Shown: positions 12,560 to 53,600 of the stretch, piece after piece
How the letters are laid out: the number at the start of each line of letters is the position of its first letter
Numbering within the stretch: the first letter of the stretch is position 1
Source: Pachyseris speciosa
Taxonomy: Eukaryota; Cnidaria; Anthozoa; Scleractinia; Pachyseridae
Reading direction: 5' to 3'
DNA: 64,000 bases
NCBI GenBank assembly: GCA_016490735.1
Contig: JAEMWC010000037.1
Coordinates: 670,001 to 734,000, forward strand
Position numbers and translations under genes: made by a program
The notes under the pieces: generated by a model
The model's database searches: none
Seen by the model: the letters and a program-made list of their open reading frames with translations, nothing else
What the model was told of the DNA's origin: nothing

Positions 12560-14295
12560 TTCATGCAAGGGATGACAAAACTTTGCCAGGACAGGGTTAA
12601 GATAGCTGAAGAAAAGGTCAGAAGACGATTAGTAGACATTCTTCCAGAAGACTGATTTAAGTGATTGTTTTGACATGACTGATGATGATCTGTTTCAAGA
12701 TTGCCAGAGTGACTGGTTGCGAAATCAGTTTTTCAAGAAACACTTTCATGTTGTGGTATGTATACATTTTGAGGCTGTACGTGGGTGGATCAGAGTAATT
12801 GGGTCTTTTAACTTTTCTTTTGTCTGTACTGTTCTCTGGCTTAAGTATTAATTTTGTACATGTTGTCAAAAAGAATATTAGAATCATGTGGATCATCCTT
12901 AAGGCAGGTTGTCCCAAACATGTACATCACTCATCCAGGAAGAATTTGGAAATGTAATCTAAACTATTTAAGATAGCTATTTTAAAATGTTTTAAAATTA
13001 AATAAATAATGTCAAAATCAGACTGATTCTTTTCAAATGTTTTGTATTTCCTTTAGGAGCCTGTTCAAAAAAACACTCAGCACAACACTTTCATCACAAG
13101 GTGGAAGGAGAAAACGCCGGCAGTTGTTCCAAACACACTGCTTTTGTTTTATTCCTCTCATCCAAAATCTAGTGGCTATGTTGTCAAATGATCTATTGAG
13201 AAAGACATGTGTAAAGACAAGTGCAAGGGTAGTTATGGCAAATTTGAATTCATCCGGGATGGTGCAGTCCTGTCAAACCATCCTTTGTTTTCAAGCAATC
13301 GCACTGATATGCTTGAAATCATCCTTTATTGTGATGAGATTGAACTTTGCAATGCTGTTGGTACGAGGTTGAAAAAATTGAAGCTACTTATGTTTTATTA
13401 CGTAATAAGTAACCTTCCAAAATTTTATCGGAGTGTTTTAAATGCAATCAATTTGTATGCAGTGGTGAGAAGTGAAGATGTGGCAACATATGGATTTGAT
13501 ACTATTCTTCGACCTTTACTGGAGGATATGTGTAAGCTCAGTACAGCAGGGGGATATCCAATTCATTTGAAGAGTGGAGATGTGATTTACCTCAATGCTG
13601 CTTTGGTTGCTTATGTAGCAGATAATCCTGCAGCACACCAAGCCATTGGCTTAAAGGAATCGGTAGGGGGTGCATTTCGAAAGTGCAGGTTCTGCCATGC
13701 AGACTATGATGCCATGCAAAATGGATTCTGTGAAGAGGACTTTAATCGACGGAACCTAGAGCAGCATCTTCAACAATGTGATGTAATTAATAATGCACCT
13801 CAGGCCTTAAAAGATCATTACATGACTGCCTATGGCATAAATCGCAAAAGCATCCTGTGTGAATTTCCTCATTTTGATATATTTAAGCAAACTCCACCTG
13901 ATGTGATGCATGTTTTGTTGGAGGGAGTCATTCCTCTTACTTTGGAGGCTTTGATGAAACACTTTTTAACAGCTAAACAGACTACTCTTGTAGAAATCAA
14001 CAATGGAATTAAGAATTTTTTATATGGCTATAGGGGAATCCTTGTTTACAATATTTGCCTCATTAGCATGAACAATTCAGTTTCTGATGGAGCTACAAAT
14101 AAATCAGTTCTGAATATTGAAAGGTCGTGGCATGAATAACTCTGCCAGTGAATATGAGCCTCATGTATTGAATACTTTTTGTGCAACGCGGGTTTAAAAA
14201 CTCAAAATTTTCAAAGAATGTATGAGCTCATTAGTGCTTTTGCCACCCAGGAATTTTGCAGTTTTTGGAAGACAATATCTCCTTGAATACTATAT

Positions 14296-18234: not shown

Positions 18235-21200
18235 ATGGGCGCACATTATACATGGGTAAATATGGTAATTGTCCCGGTCTGGGTGCATCACAGAGATAGC
18301 CCTGAGACGAAAATTCTTGTTTACGCCCTACTGGATGACCAATCCGATGCCTGCTTCATTAAGAACAAGATCCTTCAAATGTTGGCTCTGAGTGGACCAG
18401 ACGTTCAGCTAAGATTATCAACAGTGCTAGGAAAGGACTTAGTAACCTGCCAGAAAATAAGTGGTCTTGTTGTACGTGGTTTCAATGAATCAGTTTAAGT
18501 AGCCCTACCTCCAACCTATTCAAGAGAAGGAATCCCCGCCAAACGCAGTCAAATTCCAAGGCCAGAATCAGTGCATGGGTGGACTCACTTAAAGTGAGTC
18601 ACAGATCAGTTGATGCCTTATCCACATGACATTCACGTGCGGCTCCTAGGTGTAAACTGTGCTTGAGCAATCAAGCCCAGAGAAATAATTCCCGGCACAG
18701 ACGATGATCCGTACGCAAAGAAAATAACTCTTGGTTGGGGCGTTATTGGTATCGTAGACCAAAAAGAGTATGACGAAGACGGCATTCAGTGTTCCTGTAA
18801 CCAGATAGTGTCACAGGAAACCCAAGACGGTCCAAGCAAGTAGTGGGTCACTTTGTAGCAAAAACACAAGTTAAAGAAATTGTCTGTCCTGCGCAAATTG
18901 GCAAGATGTTCAAGTTTGACTTCAACGAATCAGTGAAGGAAGAAAAGGCCCTCTCCTTTCAAGACAGGAGGTTTCTAGCCATTGTCAACTCAAGCATCCA
19001 TCACAGAGAAGGCAGACACTATGAAATCCTGCTGCCACTGAAAGAGGACACACTAGAGCTGCCAAACAACAAAGAACTCACCTTGAGCCAACTAAACGAG
19101 GTTAAACAGACACTAAAGAGCGACAGCAAGTACCAAGATCACTACCAGACATTCATGAAAGAACTTATCGAGAAAGGGCATGCTGGTAAAGTACCTCCAG
19201 AAGAACTCTCCCTCAACAACAGCCATATTTGGTATATGCTACACCACAGAGTCTACCACCCGCAGAAACAAGACAAGATCCGAGTGGTCTTTGACGCAAG
19301 CACAGAGTTTAAAGGCAAGTCCCTAAACAGATATTTGCTCCAAGGACCTCACCTTACCAACAACCTCACCGGGGTCCTCTGCCACTTTTGAAAGGAACCA
19401 GTCGCCTTTATGTGCGACGTTGAGGGGATGTTTCATCAAGTGTATGTCACTCCAGAATACTGAAATTTCCTAAGATTCTTTGGTGGGAAAACGGTGATAT
19501 GGAGAAGCAACTGGTGGAATTTAGAATGAAAGTGCACTTGTTTGGAGTCGTGTCGTCACCTGGCTGTGCTAATTTTGCTCTGAAAAGGACAGCAAATGAT
19601 TTTGAGTATGAGTTTGGCGCCGAAGCAGCCGATTTCATAAATGATTTCCACGTAGATGATGGCCTCGAGTCAGTTTCTTCGGCCTCCCAAGCCATAGCCC
19701 TGATACAGAATACGAGAAACTTGTGTGCTGAAGGGGGATTCAATCTCCACAAGTTCATTTCCAACGTCAAGGAAGTAGTAGAAGCCACACCCAAGGAACA
19801 GCATGCAAAGGAAATCAGGGAGTTTGACATGATGACATATCTTCTTCCCATCAAAAGAGCCTTAGGGGTCCAATGGTGTGTGGAATCAGATCATCTCCAG
19901 TTTCGCGTTGAATTGGAGGACAGACCTTTAACCAGAAGAGGTATCTTGGCCTCACTCAGCTCAATTTACGACCCTCTTGGTTTAGTGGCACCCTTCCTGT
20001 TAACAGGAAAACACATTGTGCAAGAATTATGCAAGGGCAAGACGGAATGGGACAAACCAGTACCTGATACTATCCGGTCTCAATGGGAGAAATGGAGAAG
20101 TGAAATTCACAGTTTGGCAGAGTTGAAGATATGCAGATGCCACAAACCTGACAAGTTTGGCGAGCTAAAGTCCAATTTCTCTGACGCAAGTGTTGTTGGA
20201 TATGGCCAGTGTTGTTACCTGAGGATGGTCAACGTACATGATGAAGTTCACTGCTCCCTAGTTATGGCCAAGTCGAAGCCTATCACTGTCCCAAGGCTAG
20301 AGCTTGCTGCTGCAGTGGTATCAACAAATATCAGTGCTTTTCTCCAGAGGGAAGTGAAGTACGACCTCTCTGAAGTCTTCTGGACCAACAGCAAAGTAGT
20401 CCTTGGATACATATCAAATGAGGCCAGACGTTTCCATACGTTCGTTGCCAATCGCGTACAACTGATTCGTGACCAAACTTCCCCCGATCAGTGGAACTAC
20501 GTCGAGATGAATGAAAGACAATCTGGCTGATGATGCTTCTAGAGGGCTCACGGCACAAGAGCTGATCCGCAATACAAGATGGTGGAATGGGCCAGACTTC
20601 TTATGGAAGCCACTTATAACGAAGCCTGTGTTGGATCTTCCAGTTTCCCCCGAAGACCCTGAAGTAAAGAAGATAGCAGTCTAGGCATCCAAATCTGCAG
20701 AAAACCCAGTCCTATTGGAACGTATAAACTACTTCTCAGACTGGCACTGCACAAAGGAAGGCTATCGCATTGTGCTTTGTTTTCATGGAAATGTTGAAAC
20801 GCTGCAAGCAGACTGATAAGAAGTGTCCCAATGTGACTGTCTCCAGAGACTCACAGCATCAAGACAACAGAATGACAGAGTCAGAGAACAGGATGCAAGG
20901 AGGGATATTGGTGAGCGTTGGGGATCTACAGAAGGCTGAAAGATTGGTGATCAAAGCAGTTCAGAGTGAAGAGTTCCCAAATGAAATCGAACTGCTACAG
21001 ATGATTCAACGCAAAGACAAGGCAAACATCAAGACAGTTAAAGGAGTGACAAAAAGATCAAGCTCCATTCATCGCCTGGACCCAGTCCTTGACAACAATG
21101 GCATTCTAGGGGTTGGAGGTGGAATTGAACAAGCTGACGTGCCTTAAGATGTAAAGCATCTAATAATACTGCCAAAGAAGTCCCATGTGACAGAACTGAT

Positions 21201-22382
21201 AATTTGACACTTTCATCAGCAGTCTGCCCATCAAGGTCGAGCTAGAACACAATCATGCAGAAATTTGTGTGTCAGGCTGGATAGTAAGCGGCAGCTCCAC
21301 AGTCAGTCAACATGTAATTAAATGCATCACCTTTAGGAAGTTAAGAGGAGCACCCCAACAGCAGAAGATGTCCGACCTCCCAGCCGATCGATTTGAACAG
21401 GCACCGCCGTTTACCTACAGTGCCATCGATTATTTTGGACCATGGTACATAAAAGAAGGAAGAAAGGAGATGAAATGCTATGGAGTACTATGTACTTTCA
21501 TGTCTTCGCGAGCCGTCCATCTGGAAACTGCTGCCTCATTATCCATGAATTCATTCCTGGATGCGTATCGTCGCTTTGTTGGCCGCTGTGGACCAGTCCG
21601 TCAACTGAGATCAGATCAGGGTACCAACTTTGTCGGTGCTAAAAACGAACTTGAAGCAACTCTGTTGGAAATGAACCACGGCACAATTCAAAGGGAACTG
21701 CTGAAGAAAATTGCAACTTGATAGACTAGAAAATTAATGTACCTCAGGCCAGCCACGTGGGAGGTGCTTGGGAAAGGCAAATTTGCACAGTACGAAGCGT
21801 CCTTGCAGAAGAATAGACGACAGCTAGATGACGAGTCTCTAGGAACACTGATGAGAAGCAGAGGCCATTGTAAACAGTCGCCCACTTACCACTGATGACC
21901 TTACTGATTCCAGCTCAGCAGGTGCATTGACACCCAACCACCTTCTCACGATGAAGCCTTCTGTAGTCCTGGCGGCTCCTGGGAACTTCCAAGAAGCTGA
22001 CGTTTACTCAAGAAAGCGGTGGTGTCGAGTACAGCACCTTGCTGATGAATTTTGGCACCGATGGAAAAGGAGTTTTCTGCAGTCTCTTCAAAGCTGACAA
22101 AAAAGGACTGCCCCCCAGAGGAACCTCGAAGTTGGAGATGTGGTGATCCTTAAGGTTGAACACACACCGCATAACTACTGGAAACTTGCCTGTGTCGCCG
22201 AAGTTGATCCAGACCAAAATGGTTATGTGTGGAAGGTAACCATGGCGGTAGCTGACCAATCATTAGATGCGAATGGTAGACGTAGGCAGTCCTTGATTTC
22301 CTACCTGAGTAGACCCATCCACAAGGTGGTCATGTCGACCAGTGAGAAGAAAGACCAGGAGATTGCCGCCAAGGAGCCATGA
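18235..22382 (+). pseudogene. Decayed BEL/Pao LTR-retrotransposon pol
   Basis: Pol segments follow the Pao order. An aspartic protease-like piece (18235-18498) has LLDDQSDACF. The reverse transcriptase starts about 18843-19391 with VVFDASTEFKGKSLN and SLNRYLLQGP. It continues with CDVEGMFHQVYV (about 19411-19445) and then FHVDDGLES at about 19645-19672, the YxDD equivalent. An RNase H/linker region carries PRLELAAAVV (about 20290-20320). The integrase (about 21160-21721) has a core DYFGPWYI near 21430 and LRSDQGTNF near 21605-21632. A C-terminal chromatin-binding-like end (22140-22382) reads GDVVILK and SYLSRPIHKVV. At least six frame breaks or stops split it; no gag is seen upstream. The 5' boundary near 18230 lies next to an unrelated motif, so the left LTR is missing. 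Confidence 0.85.
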
Positions 22383-23147: not shown

Positions 23148-23561
23148 ATATTTCCAAGTCAGCTTGGACTGTGAATCACTTGTTGATCCTTCTGAGGGCA
23201 AAAGATGCGCTGTTCGCTCAAGAGAATTTAACTTGTCTATTAATTGTATTTGTCTGCTCTAGTCCGCCTGTGAATCACTTGCTGATTCAGCGTCATCTGA
23301 TTGAAATAAAAAATAGCAGCCTGGGAGGCCCACGTAATAGTCCCATTCACTACTTGAAACAGCTGTGTTCCCAGCATGGTTGTCCTGGTGGTGTAGTGGT
23401 GATCACACCCGACTAGCTTCTGGGGGACATGGGTTCAAATCCTGCTCAGGGCATAAGAATTTTTCTTTCAACTAAATTGTCAGTAGACCTGGGATATTTC
23501 CAAGTCAGCTTAGACTGTGAGTCACTTGTTGATCCTTCTGGGGGCAAAAGATGCGCTGTTA
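23148..23561. repeat. Tandemly duplicated unit of about 345 bp, left copy and start of right copy
   Basis: The phrase atatttccaagtcagctt starts both copies (23149 and 23490). It is followed by the same gatgcgctgtt, aatttaacttgtctatta and ctgggaggcccac blocks. The second copy is interrupted first by a SINE (23562-23826) and then by the 3.8-kb composite insertion (24024-27861), and resumes at 27862. This duplication is the oldest layer of the nest. Confidence 0.85.
23376..23488 (+). mobile_element. tRNA-derived SINE head, intact copy
   Basis: The sequence tggtgtagtggtgatca (A-box-like, 23390) and gggttcaaatcctgc (B-box-like, 23431) form a tRNA-related promoter pair with typical spacing. It is followed by a cataagaatttttctttcaa tail block. 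A second copy is split: its left half is at about 23984-24023 and its right half at 27862-27935. The intact copy shows what the split copy looked like before insertion. Confidence 0.7.
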
Positions 23562-23826
23562 ATAATAATAATAATCACTTTATTAAAGTCTCAAATGTAT
23601 TTAGCAAAGCACAGATGCTCTACTAATTGTGGAGACTAAATCAAATCAAATGTTGGTTTTTGAGGAGAGGGGAAAACCGGAGTACCCGGAGAAAAACCTC
23701 GGAGCAGAGAAGAGAACCAACAAACTCAGCCCACTCATGACGCTGAGTGCGGGAATCGAACCCGGGACACATTGGTGGAAGGCGAGCACTCTCACCACTG
23801 CACTAACTCTGCTCCCACTGTTGGCT
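23562..23826 (-). mobile_element. tRNA-derived SINE, minus orientation
   Basis: Read on the minus strand the head has gcagtggtgagagtgctcgc (A box) and gggttcgattcc (B box). The far end is an (AAT)n-type tail, seen as aataataataataatcactt on the plus strand. It lies within the right copy of the tandem unit, with CTGTT on both sides as a probable target duplication. A second member of the family is at 42366-42643. Confidence 0.85.
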
Positions 23827-24023
23827 CAAGAGAATTTAACTTGTCTATTAATTGTATTTGTCTGTTCTTGTCCGTCTTTGAATCACTTGTTGATCCAGTG
23901 TCATCTGATTGAAAGAAAAAATAACAGCCTGGGAGGCCCACATTATAGTCCCATTCATTACTTGAAACAGCTGTGTTCCCAGCATGGTTGTCCTGGTAGT
24001 GTAGTGGTGATCACACCTAACTA

Positions 24024-24180
24024 CAATCTTGGACACAATAAATGGAACATTTGGACCACCCCCCCCCCCCCCCCATTTCAATGATGACAGAATGGCGTGT
24101 TTTGCTCTTCGTGTGCCTTCATCATTGCTTAGGGGGGGGGGAAGGGGGTTGATTAGTCCATTTTATTCCGTCCAAGATTG
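24024..24180. mobile_element. Tc1/mariner-type MITE, left copy
   Basis: Ends CAATCTTGGAC and GTCCAAGATTG are perfect inverted repeats; inversion continues loosely inward through C-run and G-run arms and atgatg/catcat segments, so the element can fold on itself. It is nearly identical to 27703-27861 and lies in the same orientation. Its inner edge is followed by tccaagattc, a 10-bp repeat of its own end, rather than by TA. Confidence 0.85.
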
Positions 24181-24566
24181 TCCAAGATTCACACTGGCGT
24201 GACTACTGGTGTTAAATATGGTAATGGCATGATTAAGGTAGCAGTTGCACGCTGAAAAGTTAAACTTTAGATCAGAATGCAATCCTGACGGTGAATGCAT
24301 ACCCTGGCGAGACTGAAAAAATGTTTTCCATGACACTCATCAGGTGCTATGTTAAGCGTTTTTGATACTTTCTTAACATAGAAACAAAAGATGCATACAT
24401 CAGAGCCATATTAGGAGTGAAAATGTCAAGTTCGCGCCTCAACTAAGTCGGCTTTCTATTCTGTCTGAGGAATGCTTTTCCTAATTATTGCGTGGGAAAT
24501 TAAAAGTACTGTAACGATTCAATATTTCTGCTTATACTTGTCAACAAAGTTTGTCGGAACATAACG

Positions 24567-25621
24567 ATGGAGCTGCTCTCTAAGTATGTATCTAGTAGTT
24601 CACAGTCGGAAAGTTCCCATGACGAATTGAAGCCAGCCAAAGTGAGAAGCATGTACTTAATAACCTATAGCCAAGCTGATCTCAGCATTTTCCCGGACAG
24701 ACAGTTATTCGCAGATGCCGTTTGTGAGGCTGTTTTGAATTGCGAGGGACCCAAAACGAAAGTAATTCAGTGGACTTGTTGCCAGGAAAACCATAAAAAG
24801 CAAGGGAAGTAATCACATGGTCATCAAACTAAACAAAATTAAGAGGTGGCTACCGATCTGGCAATATTTAAGGAACAAGTGGATCTAGATCTAGCAGAGT
24901 TCGAGATGAACAGGGGCAACAGAGTTGTAGAGGAATGTACTTTAACAGCCTGGGAGGTGAAGAAGGTGAGTGAGGTGCTACAAAGAAGTAAACTAACAAG
25001 ACTTCAGATCTTGGAAAAATGTCTGCAGGACCCTTGCACCGCTGAGTGTGACGGTCGGTGGGCGGTATGTGCTCAACAGCTACTCATGTCCAAGGGAACC
25101 TTGTGCCAATTGAGATTTTTACCGAAGTTGTGAGAGATCTCCTAGAACAGGGGAGGGGAAAATTTCGCAACATTCTAATCAAGGGCCCTGCCAATACAGG
25201 CAAGACATTTTTACTTAATCCTTTAAACACTGTTTACAAGTCTTTAACTAATCCCGCCACATCCACTTTTGCCTGGGTCGGTGCAGAAAAGGCAGAGGTC
25301 ATTTTCTTAAACGACTTCAGATGGAATTCACAGATTATACAGTGGCACGATTTACTATTGATGTTCGAGGGCCAGCCGGTGTACCTGCCGGCTCCAAAAT
25401 CACATTTTTCTAAAGATCTTGAATTTAACAACGACACGATTTTTTGCACCACAAAGCATGACTTTGTATACGTGAAGGGAGGGGTCATCGACCAAATGGA
25501 GACAGAAATGATGGCAGTACGATGGAAGGCTTTTCAGTTTGAGAGGCAGATTCTGCAGAACGAACAATTGTCCATTCAACCGTGTGCTAGATGTTTTGCT
25601 GAATTGATTTTAAGTCAATAA
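24567..25621 (+). pseudogene. Parvovirus NS1/HUH-Rep-like protein with SF3 helicase, broken
   Basis: Three open segments in order: 24567-24812, 24846-25133 and 25058-25621. The first shows an N-terminal LITYSQADLS strand and ends in a CCQENHKK region, the expected place for an HUH nicking-endonuclease histidine motif; the histidine-rich continuation lies just past a frame break at about 24812. The third has a Walker A loop GPANTGKT (about 25185-25208), then a VIFLNDFRW Walker B-like strand (about 25300) and an IFCTTKHDF sensor-like segment (about 25440-25465), the order of superfamily 3 helicases of parvovirus NS1 and CRESS-DNA virus Reps. Two frameshifts and an intervening stop make it non-functional as read. 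It could be an endogenised viral gene or the replicase of a Rep-driven transposon family. From memory, similar proteins recur in cnidarian genomes. Confidence 0.7.
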
Positions 25622-26392
25622 ATGAATCAATCAATTTTCCAATGAACTGGTCAAGCAGTGATCGCTCGCGATTTGTGTATTCATTTGTCAATTTCCCAAT
25701 GGAAGTTGCCAGTATAAGAGCAGTTTTACTATTGAATTGCAAAGATATTCACGTAGAATATAATCTTGAATGAAATAAAGTAATTGTTAATTAATCAAGT
25801 CTAAAGTAAACTGCATTACACCACTTATTTACGAAAAGTCGGACTAATTAAGAATCCGAATAAAAAACCAAAAAAAAAAAAAAAAAAGAAGAAGCCAAAA
25901 ACAAACTAGGCGAATGCGATAGTTGAATCCTAGTTGCTCGTTGTACTTCAACTGTCCTACGTGTCACGCGCTACGCGCGATCGCAAGCACCACCAACGCA
26001 CAGGTACTGTCAACCGCGCTAGTTTAAGGAAAATAAACGTCCCATTGGCGATATTTGTCGGCTTATATTTTATTTCTGTTGTAAAGATATTTTCGTGTTT
26101 GAAAATTGAAAACAATTTTTGTTTACAAATTTGTACACTGGCACGGTTTACGAACAATTAACAACGATTTTAAACGATTTTCTACGATTTTGACCTTTGA
26201 AATAAATAACAAGCATTAACTCATATTTTATTGAAATTAGCCCAAAATCATACTAAATCGTTAAAAACTGTCCCAGACACGCTTGAAATTGTATGAAATA
26301 GATCGTAATCCATCGCAAATATGTGAAACGTCATCTGGACATAATTCAAGTGCCCTACACATCTTAAGATTCAATATTTCAGTCTTTCGGCA
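25622..26392. other. Spacer between Rep-like gene and transposase
   Basis: Contains an A run at 25868-25887, a CG-rich palindromic bit (cgcgctacgcgcg, about 25967) and AT-rich sequence with several acgatttt repeats near 26162-26190. No gene seen. The A run could mark the 3' end of an inserted piece. Confidence 0.4.
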
Positions 26393-27290
26393 CTATTTCC
26401 TATTATGTCGGCCACGCGAGAGCTCATAGACTATAGTTCTATCTATCAGTTGTTGTGAAATACCACTAATCGCTCTTTGTACCCTTTCACAAAACTGTTC
26501 ATATGATTCACGTGTTATGCCTCTTTCAAGCGCATCTTTCGCCAACTTCTTAGAGACAATGTGGAATATGTTCTCTATTGGATTCAAGTCTGAACTTCGC
26601 GGTGGGATTTTTAAAAGTTCAGAATGGCAATGGGCTATAGCCTCGTGGGCTGCCTTGCTGTTTTGTGAGGGATCACCGTCTTGCAGCCACAGTCAACTCA
26701 ATCCTTTGCATGATCGCTCAAACATTGTGTTGAAATGCTGGTCAATAAAAGATGCGAAATAGTTTCCATCCAGTTTTTCGTATCTTTCACAAACAAGCAC
26801 TCCTTTGCCGTGAGTTATTGCTACCATGAACCTAGCCACTTTTTCTCCCGTCCCAGATTTACTGCCTTTCTCCAAGCACCCTTGTGTGAGGCCTTCAGAT
26901 ATTTTTCTCCATACTCTCCCTTTGGGGGTGTGTGCTTGGTCCAGTGGATTAGTCTTGTACACGAATGAGACACCATCCAAGTAGAAGGCGATGGAGTCTG
27001 TCCAAACACTCGGGGAGTATTCTGCTTGCATTGTCCGGGCAAACTTCACTCTCTGGTCTTTGTCTGTGTGACTCATTAGCCCCTTTTTGCGTGCCTGAAG
27101 GAAGAAGTAACCATTTCTATTTAGTAAACGCCTAACAGTTGGGTCGGTGACATGATGAATTCCGGTCCGCTCTATCAGACGCGGCTGAGGAAAAGGAGCC
27201 CTCTTGGTCTCTCAATTCTACTAGACTTCGAAGAATTAATGCCTCTTGTTCTGGAGTGAGTTTTTTCTTCCTTCCATAAAACTTTCTTTA
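26393..27290 (-). pseudogene. Tc1/mariner (IS630-type) DDE transposase, broken
   Basis: The N-terminal part (27290-27077) is visible only in fragments, including a FFLQARKKG segment at about 27115-27085 just before the main frame. The main frame (27076-26693) carries AFYLDGVSFV at about 26995-26965, containing the first catalytic Asp region, then VARFMVAITHGKG and a FIDQHF segment. After a gap with the second Asp region broken (about 26690-26590), the final frame has MNPIENIFHIV (26587-26555), the DxxPxE-like PIEN motif of Tc1/mariner. Length and motif order match this superfamily. Stops and slips make it inactive. It lies inside the TA-flanked composite unit and is a candidate source for CAATCTTGG-type ends. 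Confidence 0.8.
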
Positions 27291-27702
27291 GTTGTCTGGC
27301 ACTTTGTCCTCTGTGCTTGCTGTGCGTTGCACACTTGTTTTAGAAATTCTACATCATAGAGCAATTTCTTCTGCTTTTAAGCGCTCTAATTGTAGCCTTT
27401 GTTTCTTCGGGTATTCTTTTTCTCCCTGGCATGTTGAAAGATATTTTTCAGTAATAACAATGTTCTTTATCACTTCCTCTGCTATTACCGAAAGTCACAT
27501 AACAATATAATTCACTGTTATAATTATATTCTCCATGTTGCCAAAAATATCCCTCGTGTAATACCTTAACATAGAGTGCACACCGTAAACAGATGACACG
27601 CGTGACAGTGTCAGGGATCTGTGTTTAATCGCGTTAAACGTGTTGACAGATGGCTATCTAATTACCTGCACCCATTGTTTTGTGACGTTCACAGCCTTGA
27701 TA

Positions 27703-27861
27703 CAATCTTGGACACAATAAATGGAACATTTGGACCACCCCTCCCCCCCATTTCAATGATGCCAAAATGGCGCGTTTTGCTCTTCACGCGCCTTCATCAT
27801 TGCTTGGGGGGGGGGGGGGGGGAAGTGGGTTAATTAGTCCATTTTATTCCGTCCAAGATTG
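27703..27861. mobile_element. Tc1/mariner-type MITE, right copy
   Basis: Same 158-bp element as 24024-24180 with the same end sequences, flanked by TA on both sides (27701-27702 and 27862-27863). The C- and G-runs differ in length between the copies, as expected for unstable homopolymers. The outer edge joins directly to the right half of the interrupted SINE. Confidence 0.85.
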
Positions 27862-27935
27862 TAGCTTCCAGGGGACTTGGGTTCAAATCCCGCTCAGGGC
27901 ATAAGAATTTTTCTTTCAATTAAATTGTCATTTAG

Positions 27936-30450: not shown

Positions 30451-30541
<91 letters not shown>
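30451..30541. repeat. (TA)n microsatellite
   Basis: A pure run of about 45 TA units. Perfect identity suggests it is young or expanding. It begins 35 bp after the hammerhead motif. Frames reading IYIYIY through it are not genes. Confidence 0.95.
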
Positions 30542-30543
<2 letters not shown>

Positions 30544-37096: not shown

Positions 37097-37175
<79 letters not shown>

Positions 37176-41600: not shown

Positions 41601-44600
41601 TTGTCAATAACGTCAGTCATTCTTACTTTAAATAGTCCCTCTCAGGACAACAGTCACCTGGCATTTGCCTCACCAAGTAATGAATATGTATCTTAAAAGT
41701 TCAGAGTGTTGAAAAGGGTTCAAAGAGTGTTGCTGAAGGCAGAATCAGCTGTAAGTTTTGATTTTAATTCATTCCACAAATTGCTAACAGATTGCAATAA
41801 GATGTTCAACTTTGCTTGAAAGTGAATTAGTTTAATTTCTCTGGGAAGAAACAAAGCAAATATTCTAAGCAAGAGGATACAAAAGGTGAATCCATGATGA
41901 CCTTCTTCTCAAACATATTCATGTCGTGTCACTCTACAGTAACAGTATAGCATCACATAACCATGCTCTTTGTCACAGATGTTCAAATCTTCAATTACTG
42001 TAACTAATTAACAGTTTACTAGCTGGAGGTAGCTGGATGGTTTGTTAAGTATTTGTAACTCAGCTGTAGATTCTTATTGCTTAACCTTGCTGGTCTGGGA
42101 GATTATACTGTATAACAAATTGTTTTCTTCAATTTTGAAAATTCTGCTTTGTTTTATAGGCAGAACAAGTAAGTCTTCATGGATTTATTAATATGTTTCT
42201 TATCATATCATTGGCAATGTTATGGGCTCTTCTACCAACTGATCTATTGGCCATTGGTGTTCAGTGGTTACAAAACAGGATTCTCAGTGTAAGAATTTAT
42301 TTGTTCAACAATATATTAATATACTTCTCTTTGTTCCTTGATTAATTCTAAATATAATAATATAATAATAATCACTTTATTTAAGTCTCAAATCTTTCTA
42401 GCCGAGCACAGAAGCTCTACTAATTGAGGAGACCAAATCAAATCAACGCTAAATCAAATGAAATCAAATCAAATGTTGGTTTTTGGCGAGAGGGGAAAAC
42501 AGGAGTACCCGGAGAAAAACCTCTCGGAGCAGAATAGAGAACCAACAAACTCAGCCCACTTATGACGCCGAGTCCTGGAATCGAACCCGGGCCACATTGG
42601 TGGAAGGCGAGCGCTCTCACCACTGCGCCAACCCTGCTCCCCTAGCACCATTTGTTCTTGGTTATGTGCCTTATTGTGTAAGGGAGACTTCTGTGACCTC
42701 TAACCCAAGCATGGCATGGTAGCAGTAGGCTACTGATGTAGCTATTGTAAGTCAAAATGATTTTAACCAAGGTCAAAATGAAATTCCTTCGTCTTCAAAC
42801 TCTAATTATTCATGATTCGATCATGACTAGTTAGGGTTAGAGGACAAAGAACTTTTATCTTGACCCAGGTTAAAATTATTTTGACCTGAATGCTCTCTTG
42901 TCCTGGCAGGAGAAGATTCTAGTACAAACCAACCAAACCCTTTGCCATTTACAGTGCCCTAAAAGTTCATAATCATAATCCCCCTCACAGAGGTCATGCA
43001 ATTAGTTCAGAATGAACAGATCATAACATATCTATAGTAACCCATGACTATATTATTGTGAGAGAAACCACTATCTAATGACATCTTTCATGATGTTGTT
43101 GTTTCTGTTGTTGTCATTCGTAGACTGCATTTTACTTCTGAGAGCCAAATTAATTATTTTTGGCCAATCATAAGAGATTCAGACAATCCAGTGAACCAGT
43201 CTGTTCTTGAAGCAAGTACAGTGTACACAGGAGGGTGGGGAAATGCTTGCAAGCATGTCACGATTGGTTTTGGGTCTACTACTGACTGGTTGAGAAAGTG
43301 GCGTAAGATTTTTTGGCTAGTCGCAAAACCAAAGCAATTAAAAAATTGCTTCTGACGTTCAATCAAAAACCACTGTACTGTTGGTATTATCATTGCTATT
43401 GCTGCTATGTGTACTACATAGCATTGTGATTTGAAGCTTGATTAAATTAAAATAAATACTGCTACTCACTACAGATATTGTTATGGTCATTGCCATTGCC
43501 ATTGCCATTACTTTCAAGCCATATGAGACAATATTGCTAGTCAATTTATATGGTTAATAAAATTAACATGTTTGTGCCATTGCAAAATATATTTATGCCC
43601 AATAGAATATAATATTAATATTATATTTTTACCATTACATCGTGACACTAGCTAATATGTTTAGGAAACGATTAAATATTTGAAATGTGTGTTTTCAGAA
43701 AATATCCATTATATCCCCACCAAGGAGGGAATTAGAAATTCCTAGGGGTGGGAGTTCAAAGCCCCAGGAAAATCCGAAGGGGAGGGGTGGGGGATGGATG
43801 ATTATTTTTTTTTCCAGAGGGTTGCTCGAAAAGTCTCCTCTTGTCTTTAGTCTCATAGTGTGGTAGACATTCTCAAAAACAGAAATAACTATTGGCTTAA
43901 TTATTTTAAACACAATGGTACAAAAAAAGGAAAGAAAACTGAGCACAATTTTCTTGAGAGCACATATAGAAGTGCTTGAATAAGCGAGAAGTGAACGTGC
44001 AAGCTTCCTCGTACGTTTGGTGAATTTTCATTTTGACTAGCGGATTGAGGATACGAGAAACAAGAATCAAAGACTGAGAAGCAAAAAACACCAAGTTAAA
44101 TTACCTTTTATGCAGAATCAACAAGGTTTTAGGAAGTCGTATCATCGAACCAGGAATCTGCAAGAATTTAGAGCATGCATGCATTTATTTTTAAACAAGA
44201 AATCTTAAAATTAACGTCCGCTTAGTATTTTCAAAGCTTTTGATTTATTTACTACAGTATTCGAAACCTTAATCAACGAAAATCTTTTGTTGTTCACTCG
44301 GTAAAATTATGGAAGAAGCCACGAAGCCTTTTCAGTCAAATTATTTCGCACTTGTTTATTGTAGAAGAGAACCGGGGTACTTGTAATGACTGTGAAATGA
44401 GTCAGAAAGTAGGTCCTCTGTCGGACCAAGTTTCCGCCATCTTTGAAGTCTGAGGTAAGCCAGAATTTATCCTTGAACTTGATTCAGCCCCAAATCATTA
44501 TGCACTTGTCATCGGCTTCCCCGTGGGGTCGACCCCTGGGCTACCCAGGGGGATTGTAAAAATCAGTCAAGCAAACTTGAGGAACTTCCCCGGGGGGGGG

Positions 44601-47600
44601 GAATCTCTCAAGACAAAGTCCCCAGGGTGAGGTGTCTCTCAGCTGAAAATCCCCGTGACATCCATATCAAACTTGTGAATTCCCCCACCCCCTAATCTTT
44701 GATCGTAAAACAATGTCAAGATTTTCCCCTACCCTCGGGCAAAGAATCCCATCCATTCTCCTTGTATTCCCCCACATATCTCCCTGGTAGGCCCAGGGGT
44801 CGACCCCACGGGGAAGCCGATGACATGTGCATTATTTATTTTGTTGTTTTACTTTTTCCAATGAATTCTGGAGGGGATCAGCAAGGGGAACAGTGGGGGA
44901 CCAGTAATCGGGGAATCGGTGTTTTGTTGAAGCCCCCTGAAAACAAGTAAATCTCATGCCAATGCAGTAAGCTTTTATGAAAATGAATCATATTTGTCAA
45001 ACATCAATAATAAATCTATTTTCCAAAACTTTTTTCTGGTCTGGGGACAGCATTTGTGTGAGTTTGTACAGCTGCACCTCCTTGGGGCCAAAACCACTCC
45101 CAAAGATCTTTTTCAAAACCTTTTCGGCGTCGAAGCTGAGACCAGCCATACCCAAAGCCTTTGCCGCAGGGGCCAGCAAAGGTCGAGCCAGACTGAATGC
45201 TGTGGAATAAAGGTTGCCGCCACGCAGAGCAGTTTTCGCCATTTGTGTTTTGCTGATTGCACTGTCCGCGCCATGGCCAGCGCTGGCGGCCTTTTTCAAT
45301 CGGTTTATTTCTGTGGCGGTCAACAACAGGTCGTCCCCCTTTCTGATTTGTTCCGGCTTGACACGGGGAGTCACAGCCGCTCTTTCTTTTGTGGCCTTCA
45401 TGAGGCTGCTCCTTTGGCCGTCCGTCAGAGTAATCTTGAACGGGTGATACACCGTCAGCATCTTATACCAAAGAAGAAAATTTCAGGAGCAGGTTTTCAA
45501 ATGACAACCAATTCATTCCCCACCTTGTCCAAGACGAACTCCTCCTCAGACAGAACGGCTGCCAAAACTTTGTAGTCTGCAGTGGCGCCCTGGTTCAAGT
45601 GGTAATGCAAAGTCATCTGCTTCGAATCGCCGGTCATGCTTTCCTTGGTCGACTGGAGATCGAAATAAACGAGGGAGTAAAGAGTGTCATAGTTGGTTAC
45701 ATTCAGCTGAGTTCCAGTGTTGTGGTCATTTTTCCTGTAGCTGTATTCAACTAAATCCCATTGTATCCACGCTTGGTCTTCCCCGTCGTAGTCTAGATCG
45801 GGGTAGAAGGTCGAACCATATTGCAGGCGGCACGTTGACAACTTGGCCCCACCATCGAGAGCGAAGGTGTGAAAGAAATAGGGGTTTGTTGTAGTTGCTT
45901 CCATGTTTGCAGCTTTCTGAAGGAAAACGAAAACGTGTTTCGCATTTTTGACCCCAGCGCTTATCAGCACCTGCCCTGTCAAGTCCGACCTTACCGAGCT
46001 TGTGAACAAAGTCTCTTTCAAGTAGCGCCACCGCGTGGGTTTCGGAATTTTTTATTGACAAGCTTTTGTCCTTTAGCCAAAAAGGCCATCTTTGGCACCC
46101 ACAATTCCAGAAGCGTAACAACCACCCGATGGCCAGCTGTGGCGGTGCCACCGTAGATCATGTTTGCGTCACTTTGCAGCTCTATTTCTCTCTCGGAGGG
46201 AGGAGCTTGTCTGCCAACTCCTAGAAGAAAGAAAAGCGATTGAGAGGTATCACCGCCTTGCCTGACTTCAACGGGTCGCGTTGAGAAGCGCTCGCGAACG
46301 GATGCCACTATTGGTGGTGGCACCTCCCATTACTGTGTCGGCGGCACTGTCGAGATACCAAAATTCATCTTTCAGCACACTTCTTGCGTAATCGTCGGAG
46401 TACCGCAACAAGTCTTTTATGAAGATTATTTTGTTTCTGTCGACAGCCTCATAGAGGGGTTTTCTGTTTGATTTCACATTCAATCGTTACACAAGAGAGA
46501 AGGAGTCTGACTGGCGCTGAAGCTACATCCGCAGCCACAAAAGTTCTGTCGGCCTTTTTCTGCAACTGGAAGTTCACCCGGAAATAGGCGTTGTAGAAAT
46601 CATAAATGATGTCCCGATTGGTTACCTTAAACTTGCGGCCGGTTTTGACTTGTGACTCCCCGTTCCAGGCAGCGTGATCAGGGTTTCCAAACGAAACTGC
46701 TGGTAATCAACCTTGTCAAGCAAACAAGGAGATCTGAACATCCCAGTATATCAACCAAAAACATTTTTTCTATTTCGCGGAAATTTCAAAGTCAGGGGCC
46801 ACACCTGTTCCACAGAAATCTCAAAGTTGGTTGGCCAAAATCTGGCTGAGTTTGACCATTGAATCCATCGCATGCCTTGGTTGGGAGGCGGCATTCTTCT
46901 TTTTGCATTTACTCAGCATCTGGCAGTTCCTTTTACCCCCTTGTTCAACAAGGGCCTGGCTCCCCTTTTCAGCGGCCTTTTCGGCGGTCTTTGAGGCGAC
47001 CTTCTTGACAGCGGGCACGGCGGCTTTCACGAGCCGTTTGGGACGTCTGGCCATGCCCGCCGACATTTTTCAGATGCTGATCTGTGGGCCAAGCAATTCA
47101 GGCAAGACAAACATTCTGCTCCACATGCTCTACGAGTTGTTGGAGTTTGATAAAGTCTCTCTTTTTTCGAAAAACCTTCACCAAAACAAGTACCAGGCGC
47201 TATTGCAGGACTTTGCCGAGGAAATCAACCCTGAGGTGGACTACGAGGTCATCGAGGCCCCCGGCGATGAAATCATTCCGCTGGAAGAACTCCCGCCCGA
47301 CAACCAAAAAATTGTCGTGTTTGACGACCTGGTTTGTGAAAAGAACCAGAACAACATCATAAACTATTTCATCAACGGCCGGCACCGGAACTGCAACGTC
47401 ATTTACCTGACCCAGACCTATTACAAGGTCCCCAAGAACATCCGGGACAACTGCAGCCATTTCTGCCCTTTCAGCTTTCTCCCAAGGGAAAACAAACAAA
47501 TTGCCGACAAGCTGGGGGTGCCCCCTGACCTGCTGGACCGTGCCACCGACAAGAAGTTTTCCTTCTTTTACTTCGACAAGCTGCGAAAGCTGATGAAAAG

Positions 47601-50600
47601 AAATTTCAACAAAACAATATAACATGGGGTGGTTTGCCAAATGAGCTGGAGTGCCCAGGCACCCCGTGACAACGCCACCATCCACCGCTAGCACCCTGAA
47701 GACCTTTCATCTGTCAGGCTCGGTGGCTTTTGCAGAGGACATGACAAGGGCGGACGGAACTTTCATTGGTGGGTCTCCCAGGGCATTGATCCCTGGCCAG
47801 GTGAAACCGACCTTTTTGTGGTTCAAAATAACGCCTGCCCTCCCGACAGGCACACAACTCATGCTATTCACAAAATTCAACAGACGAAGTCGTCTGACAC
47901 GGCTGACTGGGGCGAAAGGGAAGTTGTCTTCCCCCCTCCCAAAGGCTGTCAGCGCTGAAGAAACTTTCACCATCAACACGGTTTACAGCTTTGTCTTCCA
48001 GCAGCCAACCAAAGCGTTTTTTGTCTCTCATTTTTGGTTTCAAGTTGCCTGGTTAAAAATCACTTACGTATAATATGGGGTGGTTCGCAAAAAGACCTGG
48101 AACTTCCAGACATTCAGCGACGGAGAGGTCTCGACAGAGAGTTTCATGCAGCAAGATGGGAGCACCCCAATGGCAGGCCCTCTTGATGTGGGTGGACACC
48201 CTATCGAAAATCTGGGGCCACCGGCCAGCCCGCTTGACGCAGTCAACTCTGAATACGCTTCCACCACTTTTGCCGCAAGGGATGGAAACACCATAAAACT
48301 GGCAACATGGACATGGGGTAGAATCTCATCACCAAAATGGGTTACCCTAAAGACATCCTTGATGCCACGAACAAAACTTATGTTGACTCCCAAGTTCAAA
48401 GAGCCATCCTCCGCGATGGGTCAAACCTGGGAAGGGGCGATTTGAATATGAATGATTATGCCATCACGAATTTGAAAGATGCGAATTCAAGTACACCTAC
48501 TGACAACGTCGTCAACAAAAAATATGTGGACAAAGATCTGCAAAACAAATTTGACGAGACTGCGCAAAAAGACCTCAACTTGAACAACAACGCGATCACG
48601 AATCTTACGGCAACGAAACAATATGTCTACACACATCTCGCCTGGGGTTATTGGCCAGTTGAAAATGACTTTGCTTACCTTATGGGGGACACAGATGAAT
48701 CCTCTTCAGAGAGAAACATACAGGTTGAAGGAATTGTGAACATACCTTTTCCCCCCCCCAGAATAAACAAAAAAGCTTACAAGTTCAAGCTCACTCATCC
48801 CCCGCGACGCCCGATGCTGAAGGATATTACCATTACAACCCAAGAATCGGCTTCAATCTCAACCCACTGGAGGTCGGCAAAGAATACAAAGTCGTTGTTG
48901 AATTCATACCGGCAAGCCACTTTTGATGTCAGCTTCTCCTTCGATCCCGTCCATCACATGAGAGCCACCGAAGTGAGACCAGCAGGCACCAGGCAGCTCC
49001 GGAATGGAAATGCAAACCTCCCTGGACCTAAATGGGTTTTCCTTGTATCAAACAAAACTTGGCGATTTCTTGGATTTGAACGGCCAATATGTGAAAGATG
49101 GGGGCACAACCTTGTTTGATGGAACAAATAGAGAGGTGACAATGCAAAGTGACGTTAACATGAACAGCTTCTGCTCAAAGAGCCAAAGTTGGGTGGAAAT
49201 TTGAATTTGAATGATCAGACTGTTTACAATAATGACGCCCTTTTATTCAGGTTCCAAAATGGGGCTATCCGGTTTTCAAAACCTGTTGTTTGGCCGGGAA
49301 TGGTTTGCCGAGTTGAGAGTGACCTTCTCACATCCACATCTGCGCGCGACAAAAATACTTTCACCATGTCCCAGTTTTGGTCCCCATTCACCCTCTTCTG
49401 AAGCATCAGCTGTCTTGAATTGCAGCTTTCCACACACACCCCCCCCCCCCCCAGAGCGGTGGGCGTCTCTTTATTGAAAACATTTCATGAAGGGGGAATT
49501 TGCAGTTGCGCCACACCCTCCACAGTTTCGATATTGCACAAGGAATGAGCGAGAAGTCAACCAAAACCCCCCATCCCTCTGGGGAACTTCACATTCCCAC
49601 CAACTCAACAGGGTTGTCATTCAAAATAACGGGTCTTGTACACAACACAACAGCCTGGCTAACCGTCGTGTTTGTTGCATGAAAATTCCTTTCTTTGTAT
49701 AATGGCAGGTGCCGCACCCCAGCTCTGCGTTTTCAACTTCAACCACATTGACCCCTCCCTTGAACAGGACACCGTCGAGATGTTGAAGAAGCTGTACGCT
49801 TTCTATCACAAAAAACATTGGGGCTACGACAAGCTCTTTCGCTCCGTTCAGAAAAAAAAAACCTGTTTTGCAACGTTGTGGCTGGCAAGGCGGTCATCAC
49901 TTCTGCAATTGCTGGGGGCATCACCCTGAATCCAGCTGTCTTTGCAACTTTGACCGGTTTCGGGCTTGTCGTCAAAGCTGTTGCCAGCTTCAAAAAATGC
50001 GACAAAAGAGCCTAGAATGCCAAGTTCGCCAGGGTTGAGTACAAGAAAATCCTTGTTGCGATTCGGTTTCATCTCAGGGCTGAGGCTTTCGATGAAAAGG
50101 CATTTCTTGACAAGCTGAAAATGGTTGACGACTTCATCAGCGACCACTGTATGGAGATCCCCGAAAAAATCCAGGCGAAATACGCCAAACGCTTGTCACG
50201 GAGTGAAGACCACAATTACATTGTTCAATTGAAGTCCCACCACCATTCACTGAACCTTTCTTTCGCCCGGCGATGTGTTGCTGGGTTCATTTTTTCAACG
50301 ACAGGAAAGAGGTGTGCGAGAATTTCTTTTTTGCGCGGCCAAACTCCTTCTGGAACCGCCCAAAAATAATCAAACAAAAAGCAAACGTAATTCACCGACT
50401 CCCTGAAATCGCGGATGAGGCTTCCCAATAACTTCCACTGAGACGGGTCGCAAATTTCTCGCCCACCATCTGAAATGGTGTTGACGGTGTCGAGGATTTC
50501 GTGTTTCTCGAGAATTTTGCGAACATGGGTTCATGAAACAGGGTTGGCTGTCCACCCCAGCTCTGCCCTGGTTTTGGTTGGTGTGGCAAGTTCCACAAAC

Positions 50601-53600
50601 GTGTGGCAACTTCGACAAACAAGTTCTCAATTCTCATGGTTCTCAACCATCATTTTCCCACAGCACACTCTTCCGCTTGTGTGCTTCATCTTTCCCACTT
50701 GGTTTATATGCAGAAGTGCCTTTCAAAAATTTACTACAGCCCGAAAGGTTATTGGAAAGGGTCAGCCGTAGTGAAAAAACTGGCCCAAGCCGCAAAGGCT
50801 TCGGAAAATGTGGCCAAACAATGGTTGGAAAAGCAGGCGGTTTGGCAGATCTTTCTTCCCACACTGCGGCATGTCCCTCGCCCAAAATTTGACGTGCCAA
50901 TGGCCAACGCGTTGCACGAAGCCGACCTGCTCTTCATGCTGCACGACAAGGGCCCTCCTGCCAAGAAGCAGGGAAGCCGCAGAACTTTCAAATACACGCT
51001 GACTGTGGTCGACGTGGCCAGCCACTTCAAGGTAGCTGAGCCCCTGACCTCGAAAAATTCTGACAAAGTGGCACGGGCCTTTGAAAGGATTTACAAGTGC
51101 GGGCCTCTCAAATGGCCAAAGCTGCTACAGGTTGATCCCGAGTTCATGGGAGCTGTTTCCAGAGTCATATAAAAACATGGAACAAACATTCGTCATGGGC
51201 ATGTTAAAATTCACCGCGAGCAGGCAATTGTAGAACGCTTCAACCGCACTCTGGCTGAGCGTCTGTCTGGACACCAGTATGCAGTCGAAAATGCATTTGC
51301 CAGAGGGGGTGCGGTCTGTTGCATGGGTGGTAAGGCTTCCCAAGGTTGTTGCTGCTCTCAACAACCAGACCACGCGGCTGACAGGATTGAAACCTGCTGA
51401 TGCGATCCGAAAAAAATCTGTTTTTGCCCAGCCAGCAACTCCGTATTTCAGACCTGTTGGCGCGGCCGAAAAGTTGATGGTTGTCCCACCGAATACCGAG
51501 CTCCCTCCTGTCAAACCTGGTTAAGGGTGTGGGATGTGATATTCGATGGGTTTTGTGTGAATCCCGTCGGGCCTTACCCACTGCTTGTCGTAGTACGCGC
51601 TCAGACCCAACTTCTGCTGCACGTAAGTCACCATCCGTCCTTCTCTCATGCGGAAGCCTGTGTTCGTCGCTATGTCTTTGTGCCCCTCGAGCGCCGCTTT
51701 GAAACACTCACCTGATGACGTTTTGCCTCTGGTTCATCCCTTTCGTGCTGAACTTGTTTTTACCTCCGTCGACATCCACAAAGTAACACTTCGAGCAGAG
51801 CGCAATCATTCAAGGACCCTCGCACTCCAGCTTGAATAACCCTGGGGTGCTGCTGCTCCACTTGTCCAATGCAAGCCCCTGCTTTTTTTCTGCTTCAAAC
51901 TAGACCCTCATCTCCGGCTTCACAACATCTTCCAACTTTGCACCAGAGATCGCCATGTAGTTGCTGTCCGTGTCCACCTGAATCAGCTCGAAGTCGCGGC
52001 GGTCCATGAACTTGTCAAGGAAGTCGAAGTAAAACTCGAGCATTCGAAGCTTGGCCAACTGGTACACTGCGATGCCGACCTGGAATGGTCTTTGGATCGT
52101 GATCCGCGACTTCCGGCTTTCCAGCTCGTATGCCTCCCTAATTTCGTCGAGGTCCGAGAAGAAGGAACTTCTCAAAGCTCTGTCGATGACGTTTTCATCC
52201 TTTGTGTAAATGGTGTTGGTTTGCTTCTCCAAAGCTTCGATCATCTTCCCGTACGTGCTGTTGCCCAAGAGTTTGAACACATCGGCCAACAAGGCCTTGC
52301 TCTTGTCTGCTTCCCCTGTTCGACGCGTCTCTGTCACCTGCTCCACGAACCAGGTGAAAATCTTCTTTGGTTGGTAATTAATTGTTCGGTAAACAGTGGT
52401 GATCTCCACCCCGTGGTCGATGTACCAGCGAAGAAGGGGAGCGTACAGCAACATTTTTTCAGCAGACAGGGCCCCCACCAACTTTCTCCCGTCCCCGCGG
52501 GTTCTGCCGGTGCGCTCCAGGTACTCCAACATGTGATCTGGCACAGCTTCCTGTGGCACCTGTTTGTTGATGAAGAAAGGGCACATCTCCTCGAACTTTG
52601 GGACCAACGCCTCGGGAACGTTCAGATCAACTTCTGCAAAACCAAACCACTTTCCCTCTTGCAACATTTGCTTCAGCCTGGGGGCAGCTCTTTCCCGCTG
52701 CTCTTCAGGGACATGAATCATGTGTTCCTTCCTGCAGGGCATGTCCTGAAGCATTGTTGACAAATACAATGCGTTGGCGTTGTAGCCCAGGATTTTTCCA
52801 CAAGGTTTGGGTTTCTCAACTTTGACCCCAACTTCTTGGGCCCCCGGCCACAGCTCCTTTCAACATTTCACAAGCCTCTTTGCAAGGGCTCCACAACTCC
52901 GCTCCCCACTCAACTGTTCCCCGCATCAAATAGTGAAGGCTGACTCCTGGAATGCTGACAGCGTCTTTCAGAATGTCAATTCCCTTTTCGGTGTAGAAGG
53001 CACGCATTTTGTCCAATGCTTCGAGACCAGGCGCGACGTCCAGGTTGTTGTAGTAGCGCAACCAGTCCGCAAAGGTCCTCCTTTCCCTTTTCTTTGAACA
53101 AACGAACACACCCTTTCCATTCCTCCGGCATCAACACCCACTCACCTTTTAAACTTGAATACCACTCAGGATGGTCTGGCAAATCGGGAAAATCGAGCTT
53201 GTCTGGGCTGTCAAACCATTCACATGGAAACCACGACTTGATGGCCTCACAGCCATAAGCCTTCACCCACTTGTCGTAGCTGGTTCCTTGCCCCAAACAG
53301 TTGATTATGTCAAGAAAGCGGAACTTTGGCAAGAGCAGAAACATTAACTTGTTCCATCTTTGGGCACTTTCACTTTTTTTTTTGGTCAATTCAGCGAGGT
53401 AATTCAATAAATACTCCTTCACAAGATTCAAGTTGTATCGGCCAGAGTTGAAACCAAGCATGGGCACTTCGTCACACCACGCAGCAATTTTGTTTTTGGG
53501 CAGAAAGTCGAAAATGTCTGGCATGAAAACCCTTCTAACTTCCTCCCTGATTCTTTTCCCGCGCCGTTCGATCTACTCTACAAACTTGTGAATCAGCTCT

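Follow-up and report, generated by a model that had tools for sequence, protein, structure and literature searches.

The element described here lies in a 64,000-nucleotide stretch of the genome of the coral Pachyseris speciosa (contig JAEMWC010000037.1, positions 670,001 to 734,000), and "the window" hereafter means this whole stretch. It is a unit of 3,838 bp (24024-27861), followed by a second TA at 27862-27863, as read directly in the window sequence. Two modules of the miniature inverted-repeat transposable element (MITE) type enclose a Rep gene and a Tc1-type transposase gene, both broken, that converge on each other (Table 1). The junctions make movement of the whole unit a well-supported reading of the sequence, and the many copies, together with distant relatives, suggest that the gene pair travels together.

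Table 1. Features of the unit and of its insertion site in the window (SINE, short interspersed nuclear element).
Feature	Positions	Strand	Remarks
Uninterrupted SINE paralogue, for empty-site comparison	23210..23482	+	CTAG intact
SINE left half, ending in the target TA (24022-24023)	23818..24023	+	92% identity to 23210-23415 of the uninterrupted copy
Left terminal module, 157-bp near-palindromic MITE	24024..24180	+	ends CAATCTTGGAC/GTCCAAGATTG; copies genome-wide
Constant inner left junction, imperfect repeat of module end	24181..24190	+	TCCAAGATTC in the window, TCCGAGATTC in the young units
Broken Rep gene, N-terminal (HUH) part and SF3 helicase part	24567..25621	+	stop codons; 415-column gap against young copies
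Rep piece with the SF3 helicase (Walker A motif GPANTGKT)	25052..25621	+	278 homologs at E<=0.001 among 298 candidates
Broken Tc1-type transposase gene, DD34E spacing	26393..27432	-	stop codons, frame changes
Constant inner right junction	27692..27702	+	CAGCCTTGATA in the window, CAGTCTTGATA in the young units
Right terminal module, 159 bp	27703..27861	+	oriented like the left one
Duplicated TA (27862-27863) and SINE right half	27862..27930	+	93% identity to 23414-23482

The insertion site can be read to the base. The SINE is broken at 24023 after CTAACTA and picks up again at 27864 (GCTTCC..), while the uninterrupted copy in the same window preserves the empty site, which reads ..CGACTAGCTTCTGG.. 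/ ..CGACTAGCTTC.. with its CTAG intact. Therefore, the unit inserted into CTAG with exactly one TA gained, precisely as the original prediction had described it. CTAG accounts for only 119 of the 3,787 TA sites in the window, so the target preference is strong, provided that the insertions are independent. Just to the left of the unit, the SINE-rich stretch also holds a repeat of about 260-285 bp, which occurs at 23560-23816 and again, with 82% identity, at 42358-42641.

Both modules stand in direct orientation, and each, bounded by CAATCTTGGAC/GTCCAAGATTG, forms a long near-palindrome when folded, with a C-run/G-run stem and the inner arm CAATGATG/CATCATTG. Perfect copies of CAATCTTGGAC occur at 24024, 24170 (minus), 27703 and 27851 (minus); with one mismatch permitted, 5 matches are observed against 1.66 expected. 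The TA flanks differ from the earlier description: the left module has TA on its outer side only, its inner flank being TCCAAGATTC, and the right module has it on both sides. Compared with the module of the young copies, and with homopolymer runs excluded, the left module of the window differs at 6 positions and the right one at 1. Modules also occur alone, and four of the five solo modules examined (L005, L019, L022, L024) stand at CTAG with TA and hardly differ from the modules of the units. This similarity made us drop module identity as a discriminator between transposition and recombination into resident MITEs. A separate Tc1 element with its own terminal inverted repeats (TIRs) inside the interior was also considered, and no convincing pair was found there. 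In addition, modules alone form head-to-tail arrays in L020 (998-1780, five copies), L004 and L021, and also in L007 and L008; the fused ends read GATTGATCTTGG in L020 and L004 and GATTGAATCTTGG in L021, with CTA/TAG outer flanks in all three.

A fold search assigns the Rep product to the HUH nuclease plus SF3 helicase fold among the folds on the list searched, and families outside that list may fit as well. Its helicase part matches SF3 structures, and the HUH part by itself is nearest in the list to the Reps of CRESS viruses. Pfam matches are weak (Parvo_NS1 in 12 and PPV_E1_C in 15 of 35 sequences), a sequence search of the Rep profile against solved structures gave no match, and the Rep piece of the window matched such structures only weakly, the hits being to other ATPases and GTPases. 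In alignments of 35 and of 73 sequences, the catalytic residues of Rep nevertheless show no or almost no variation. In the transposase, D157, D256 and E291 are invariant in 29 aligned sequences, which corresponds to DD34E, and the protein matches the Sleeping Beauty structure 5cr4 (E 2.8e-13). Among the matches listed, many transposase homologs carry precomputed PF01498 and PF13358 annotations; the pieces in the window score just below the curated cut-offs for DDE_3 and HTH_Tnp_Tc3_2 and well below that for NCBIfam IS630. Among the contigs first fetched, the full 359-residue transposase frame is present in 17 of 22 copies with matches of at least 1,000 bases.

Two other origins of the Rep gene were tried and set aside. 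An A-tract near 25866 raised the idea of a retrocopied gene, and the two stretches compared share no direct repeats of at least 8 nt. As for a free virus, no relative was confirmed among the IMG/VR viral contigs at the sensitivity of those scans. No capsid (VP) gene was found in L010, L012 and L013, where all ATG frames of at least 120 residues are Rep or transposase frames or pieces of them.

Next, we consider the other copies in the genome to which the window belongs (984 Mb, 2,368 contigs). A search with the module, in which 40 of 339 candidates were scored, gave 56 matches, including same-strand pairs 3.8-4.2 kb apart; between such modules lies a common interior with constant inner junctions, the left module being followed by TCCGAGATTCCC and the right one preceded by CAGTCTTGATA. 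Since this search chose places by the module itself, the count of places was taken from a search with the Rep piece (25052-25621; 40 of 60 candidates scored), which matched at 25 or more places. At 12 of the 25, both outer ends could be read, and all have the form CTA-unit-TAG. They comprise single units in the window and on contigs C1315, C99, C76, C47, C4, C214, C221 and C821, and arrays on C1535, C414 and C1444. The flanks of these 12 insertions (up to 200 bp per side) show no match between insertions; the sole match is that of the two C821 flanks with each other, which places C821 within repeated DNA. At eight further places one outer junction was read, and it is TA in every case (C2319, C256, C1555, two places on C1, C22, C16 and C281); among these, C16 is without the left module, and the right end is cut off in C281 and at one C1 place. 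Six young units (C1315, C99, C76, C256 and two of C2319) share 99.1-99.9% identity, whereas their identity to the window copy is 94.4-94.5%. The latter has the 415-column gap in Rep and is evidently an older, decayed and dead copy.

These copies bear directly on the original prediction that the 3.84 kb moved as one unit. The interior was sought between the same MITEs elsewhere and was found, and TA junctions at both ends with unrelated flanks in 12 insertions uphold the claim. The alternative offered with it, that the interior was added later between two MITE copies, is excluded as a one-off event at the window locus, although circles may have entered resident MITEs by homologous recombination, an improbable route taken up below. 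In a chance nest, the arrival of an endogenous parvovirus-like sequence and of a Tc1 element between two MITEs would be accidental. Nothing favours this apart from the window locus itself, and the recurrence of the arrangement and of its inner junctions at many places, together with the gene order kept in divergent relatives, refutes it, so that we give it practically no credence.

How old is the pairing of Rep and Tc1? In protein searches of the genome, Rep matches occur at 37 or more near places (at least 65% identity) and 15 or more divergent ones (45-61% identity). The proximity table compares 71 of 101 Rep rows with most of the 119 Tc1 rows, extra pieces of places already entered being omitted. 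By coordinates, a convergent Tc1 match lies within 5 kb at 33 of the 37 near Rep places, and that of C821 was seen directly besides. Downstream of Rep, a convergent Tc1 was found at 14 of the 15 divergent places: C9 (where its last 81 residues are seen and the sequence beyond is unreadable), C223, C185, 10 of 12 further loci at each of which one stretch of 1.15-1.2 kb was read, and C534, by the search. At C249, no Tc1 was found within the 1.15 kb examined. In two of the three divergent loci read at length, a hairpin module with C-run and G-run still carries the 11-bp end of the unit. The left module of C9 (266 bp), which follows CTA and runs from CAATCTTGGAC to GTCCAAGATTG, differs in sequence and has the same hairpin of C-run, CAATG..CATTG and G-run; in C185, the left module is missing its outer portion, and the right one starts with CAATCTTGGAC and ends in GTCGAAGATTG followed by TAG. 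This persistence of the Tc1 pairing and of the ends among divergent Rep places indicates an old two-gene mobile family and no chance nest.

In the protein database, among the matches listed (the best 120 of 278, of 1075 and of 725), three Rep/Tc1 pairs each derive from longest contigs of equal size (4601; 384268; 327380), which suggests linkage in other genomes as well. Of the homologs listed for Rep and for Tc1, many come from contigs of about 3.8-4.4 kb, near the size of the unit; these may be extrachromosomal forms or merely short contigs. The original prediction had pictured a Tc1 element that picked up a Rep gene. The presence of both genes in one mobile unit stands, and nothing favours that direction of acquisition: the pairing is old, so that there is no sign that Tc1 acquired Rep rather than the reverse.

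Several copies form head-to-tail arrays. C2319 carries seven units, and an eighth begins at the contig end; further arrays lie on C256, C1555, C414, C1535, C1444 and C576, and C520 is array-like, judging from coordinates. Where the junctions were read in C2319, C256, C1444 and C576, one module stands at each. The C2319, C256 and C1555 arrays reach contig ends, so their unit numbers are uncertain, and this is what could be said for an assembly artefact of collapsed or mis-joined repeats. The single units, with clean TA junctions and mutually unrelated flanks, mostly inside large contigs, make such an artefact very improbable for the family; likewise, the join of two loci against which the original prediction had cautioned is hard to square with so many sites.

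Some inner junctions are devoid of the module and hold a short scar instead: TTGATA-CTG-TCCGAG in C1535, TTGATA-CAG-TCGAG in C414 and TTGATA-CATG-TCCGAG in C1555. C16 has a possible similar scar, CGTG, where the left module would stand. We take CTG and CATG to resemble Tc1-type excision footprints. For Sleeping Beauty, the footprint CAG is given in an excerpt of PMC8151067. Given the module ends CA..TG, all three scars would be expected from a Tc1-type cut followed by end joining. Thus, in addition to whole-unit insertion, single modules appear to have been excised by a Tc1-type transposase.

What kind of element would produce these structures? Visible in the sequence are the CTAG insertion with TA duplication, the scarred module-less junctions, the head-to-tail multimers and the long co-occurrence of Rep and Tc1. 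We consider it highly probable that the unit is a decayed copy from a two-gene DNA transposon family, in which the Tc1-type transposase moves the whole unit and Rep probably copies it from the hairpin modules. The outer 11 bp of each module would be the terminal repeats cut by the DD34E transposase. The acting enzyme, most likely the element's own, would insert the whole unit at CTAG and duplicate TA, and would at times excise a single module, leaving the short scar seen at the junctions. Rep would most likely nick the hairpin core of the module, as its fold, the conserved hairpin and the arrays suggest, and may then copy the element by rolling-circle or rolling-hairpin replication. The products would be head-to-tail multimers in which each junction holds one module, and these could be reinserted. 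The full dual chemistry, in which the DDE transposase excises and inserts, the HUH-SF3 Rep amplifies extrachromosomally and a single 150-bp module is transposon end and replication origin at once, we advance tentatively, with slightly more doubt than belief.

A different route to the same structure starts from circles that held the interior and a single module. Homologous recombination would have brought them into solo MITEs already in place, and the TA on the outside would date from the earlier MITE insertion. Solo modules of the required kind exist, circle entry would leave an identical-looking structure, and arrays with one module per junction are compatible with a circular intermediate. 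We judge this route distinctly improbable, given that circle entry would be needed anew at every site, that two loci of the divergent subfamily have their own, longer module type, and that the element encodes a transposase of the kind suited to these ends.

The following observations weigh against the two-gene transposon. One of the five solo modules, L023, is without TA. At four of the 25 places, CA stands in place of TA where the junction was read (C576, C1034, C207, C687), and one, C376, is cut off at both ends and has no module. C1034 (L034), C207 (L049, L050) and C687 (L055, L056) have common flanks, and look like one insertion carried in three copies of a larger repeat. No Tc1 was seen at 3 of the 37 near and 1 of the 15 divergent Rep places, the stretch fetched for C223 contains no module, and for 24 of 62 Tc1 places the matches listed include no Rep within 5 kb; such absences are weak evidence, since 86 of 564 candidates were scored in one genome protein search and 114 of 724 in the other. 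A Rep frame of at least 472 residues is open in only 4 of 19 copies with a matched 5' end, among the contigs first fetched; with the open transposase copies, these nevertheless mean that near- or full-length frames of both genes exist. Arrays can also arise by unequal crossing-over between direct repeats. Finally, of the 1,473 Rep bases, 248 remain in the C231 array unit that was read; this unit nevertheless belongs to a long array and has a module at its junction, so Rep is dispensable in cis. Rep-less copies of this kind look like non-autonomous derivatives. Many Tc1 copies without a Rep match occur on G000 C231:81926-124137 (13 Tc1 rows) and on C80 (6 Tc1 rows).

It is on these last points that Rep as an inert viral relic, trapped between two MITEs while the Tc1 transposase moves the unit and unequal crossing-over between modules or interiors makes the arrays, finds its footing: the Rep-deleted copy sits in an array and few Rep frames are open. 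The C2319 units also agree with it, for in the distance matrix they fall into two groups 12-16 bases apart with 0-2 bases within a group, as local duplication predicts. This grouping is compatible with local duplication of either kind, and we dropped array history as a proof of rolling-circle copying because the matrix suits unequal crossing-over too. A passenger would be expected to decay, whereas the catalytic residues of Rep are maintained and Rep still stands beside Tc1 at nearly all places of 45-61% identity. Accordingly, we regard an inert Rep as unlikely, while giving it serious weight.

The window contains other mobile elements as well. A relic at 46738-53572, with an A32-like packaging ATPase (46738-47619, E 6e-14) and a type-B DNA polymerase (51903-52859 minus, E 7e-06), resembles a Maverick/adintovirus-type element. 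Pieces of a BEL/Pao-type retrotransposon occupy 18801-21721 (Pao peptidase at 19424-20527, E 3e-36), a Plavaka-type transposase fragment lies at 13192-14136 (E 3e-07), and perfectly self-complementary stretches occur at 30453-30542 and 37101-37172.

As a rule, a cut-and-paste transposon multiplies only by way of repair or by timing with host replication. If the two-gene reading is true, a Tc1 transposase joined to a viral-type replicase would constitute an element with its own copying machine, which could account for the tandem arrays as well as for the burst that produced near-identical copies. If the dual chemistry holds as well, the family would be a stable, widespread and capsid-less fusion of a cut-and-paste transposon with single-stranded DNA (ssDNA) virus replication in marine animals. 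In corals and echinoderms, some NS1/Rep relatives of the "parvovirus-like" kind may then be transposon genes rather than viral ones, which bears on the persistence of ssDNA-virus replication genes in animal genomes. Our search of the open-access literature, which was partial in coverage and had repeat databases outside its scope, found no paper describing a Tc1 element that carries Rep; an excerpt of PMC5013282, on parvovirus-related sequences in animals, leaves the question unsettled.

We would place the unit in the Tc1/mariner superfamily, with its conserved replicase of virus type and its compound, palindromic ends as new features, because the superfamily features tested are present. Like Tc1 and Sleeping Beauty, it has a DD34E transposase with HTH, a TA duplication, terminal inverted repeats and a short excision scar, the last from junction sequence alone. 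Unlike them, it has an HUH-SF3 Rep, complete near-palindromic end modules in direct orientation, a CTAG target and tandem multimers, and we know of no Tc1/mariner member with such a second gene or with any of these other features. Parvovirus NS1, adeno-associated virus (AAV) Rep and the CRESS-virus Reps likewise combine an HUH endonuclease with an SF3 helicase, and palindromic hairpin termini of about 150 nt, the size of the AAV inverted terminal repeat, may be a further likeness, as the modules fold into near-palindromes. In contrast to parvoviruses and AAV, the termini of the unit are in direct orientation, it has a DDE transposase and a TA duplication, and no capsid frame was found in the three loci inspected. 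Helitrons also join an HUH nuclease to a helicase, which is of the SF1 Pif1-like type and comes without target-site duplication, whereas the unit has an SF3 helicase, a TA duplication and a DDE transposase. Stowaway-like MITEs, which duplicate TA, and coral CMITEs share with the unit short TIR modules and head-to-tail MITE arrays. The CMITEs form arrays and are linked to piggyBac, as far as the excerpt of PMC2872659 goes, whereas the modules here enclose a coding element. The closest parallel that we found in print is Teratorn of fish, a piggyBac element fused with an alloherpesvirus and termed, in the excerpt of PMC10175614, the first fusion of a cut-and-paste transposon with a DNA virus. As in Teratorn, transposon ends enclose a virus-type replication gene and appear to move with it, which the junctions indicate here. 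Teratorn is 180 kb long and holds a herpesvirus genome, whereas the present unit is about 4 kb, of Tc1 type, with Rep as its sole virus-type gene; it would thus be a second, much smaller and old case of a transposon and DNA-virus machinery in one mobile unit.

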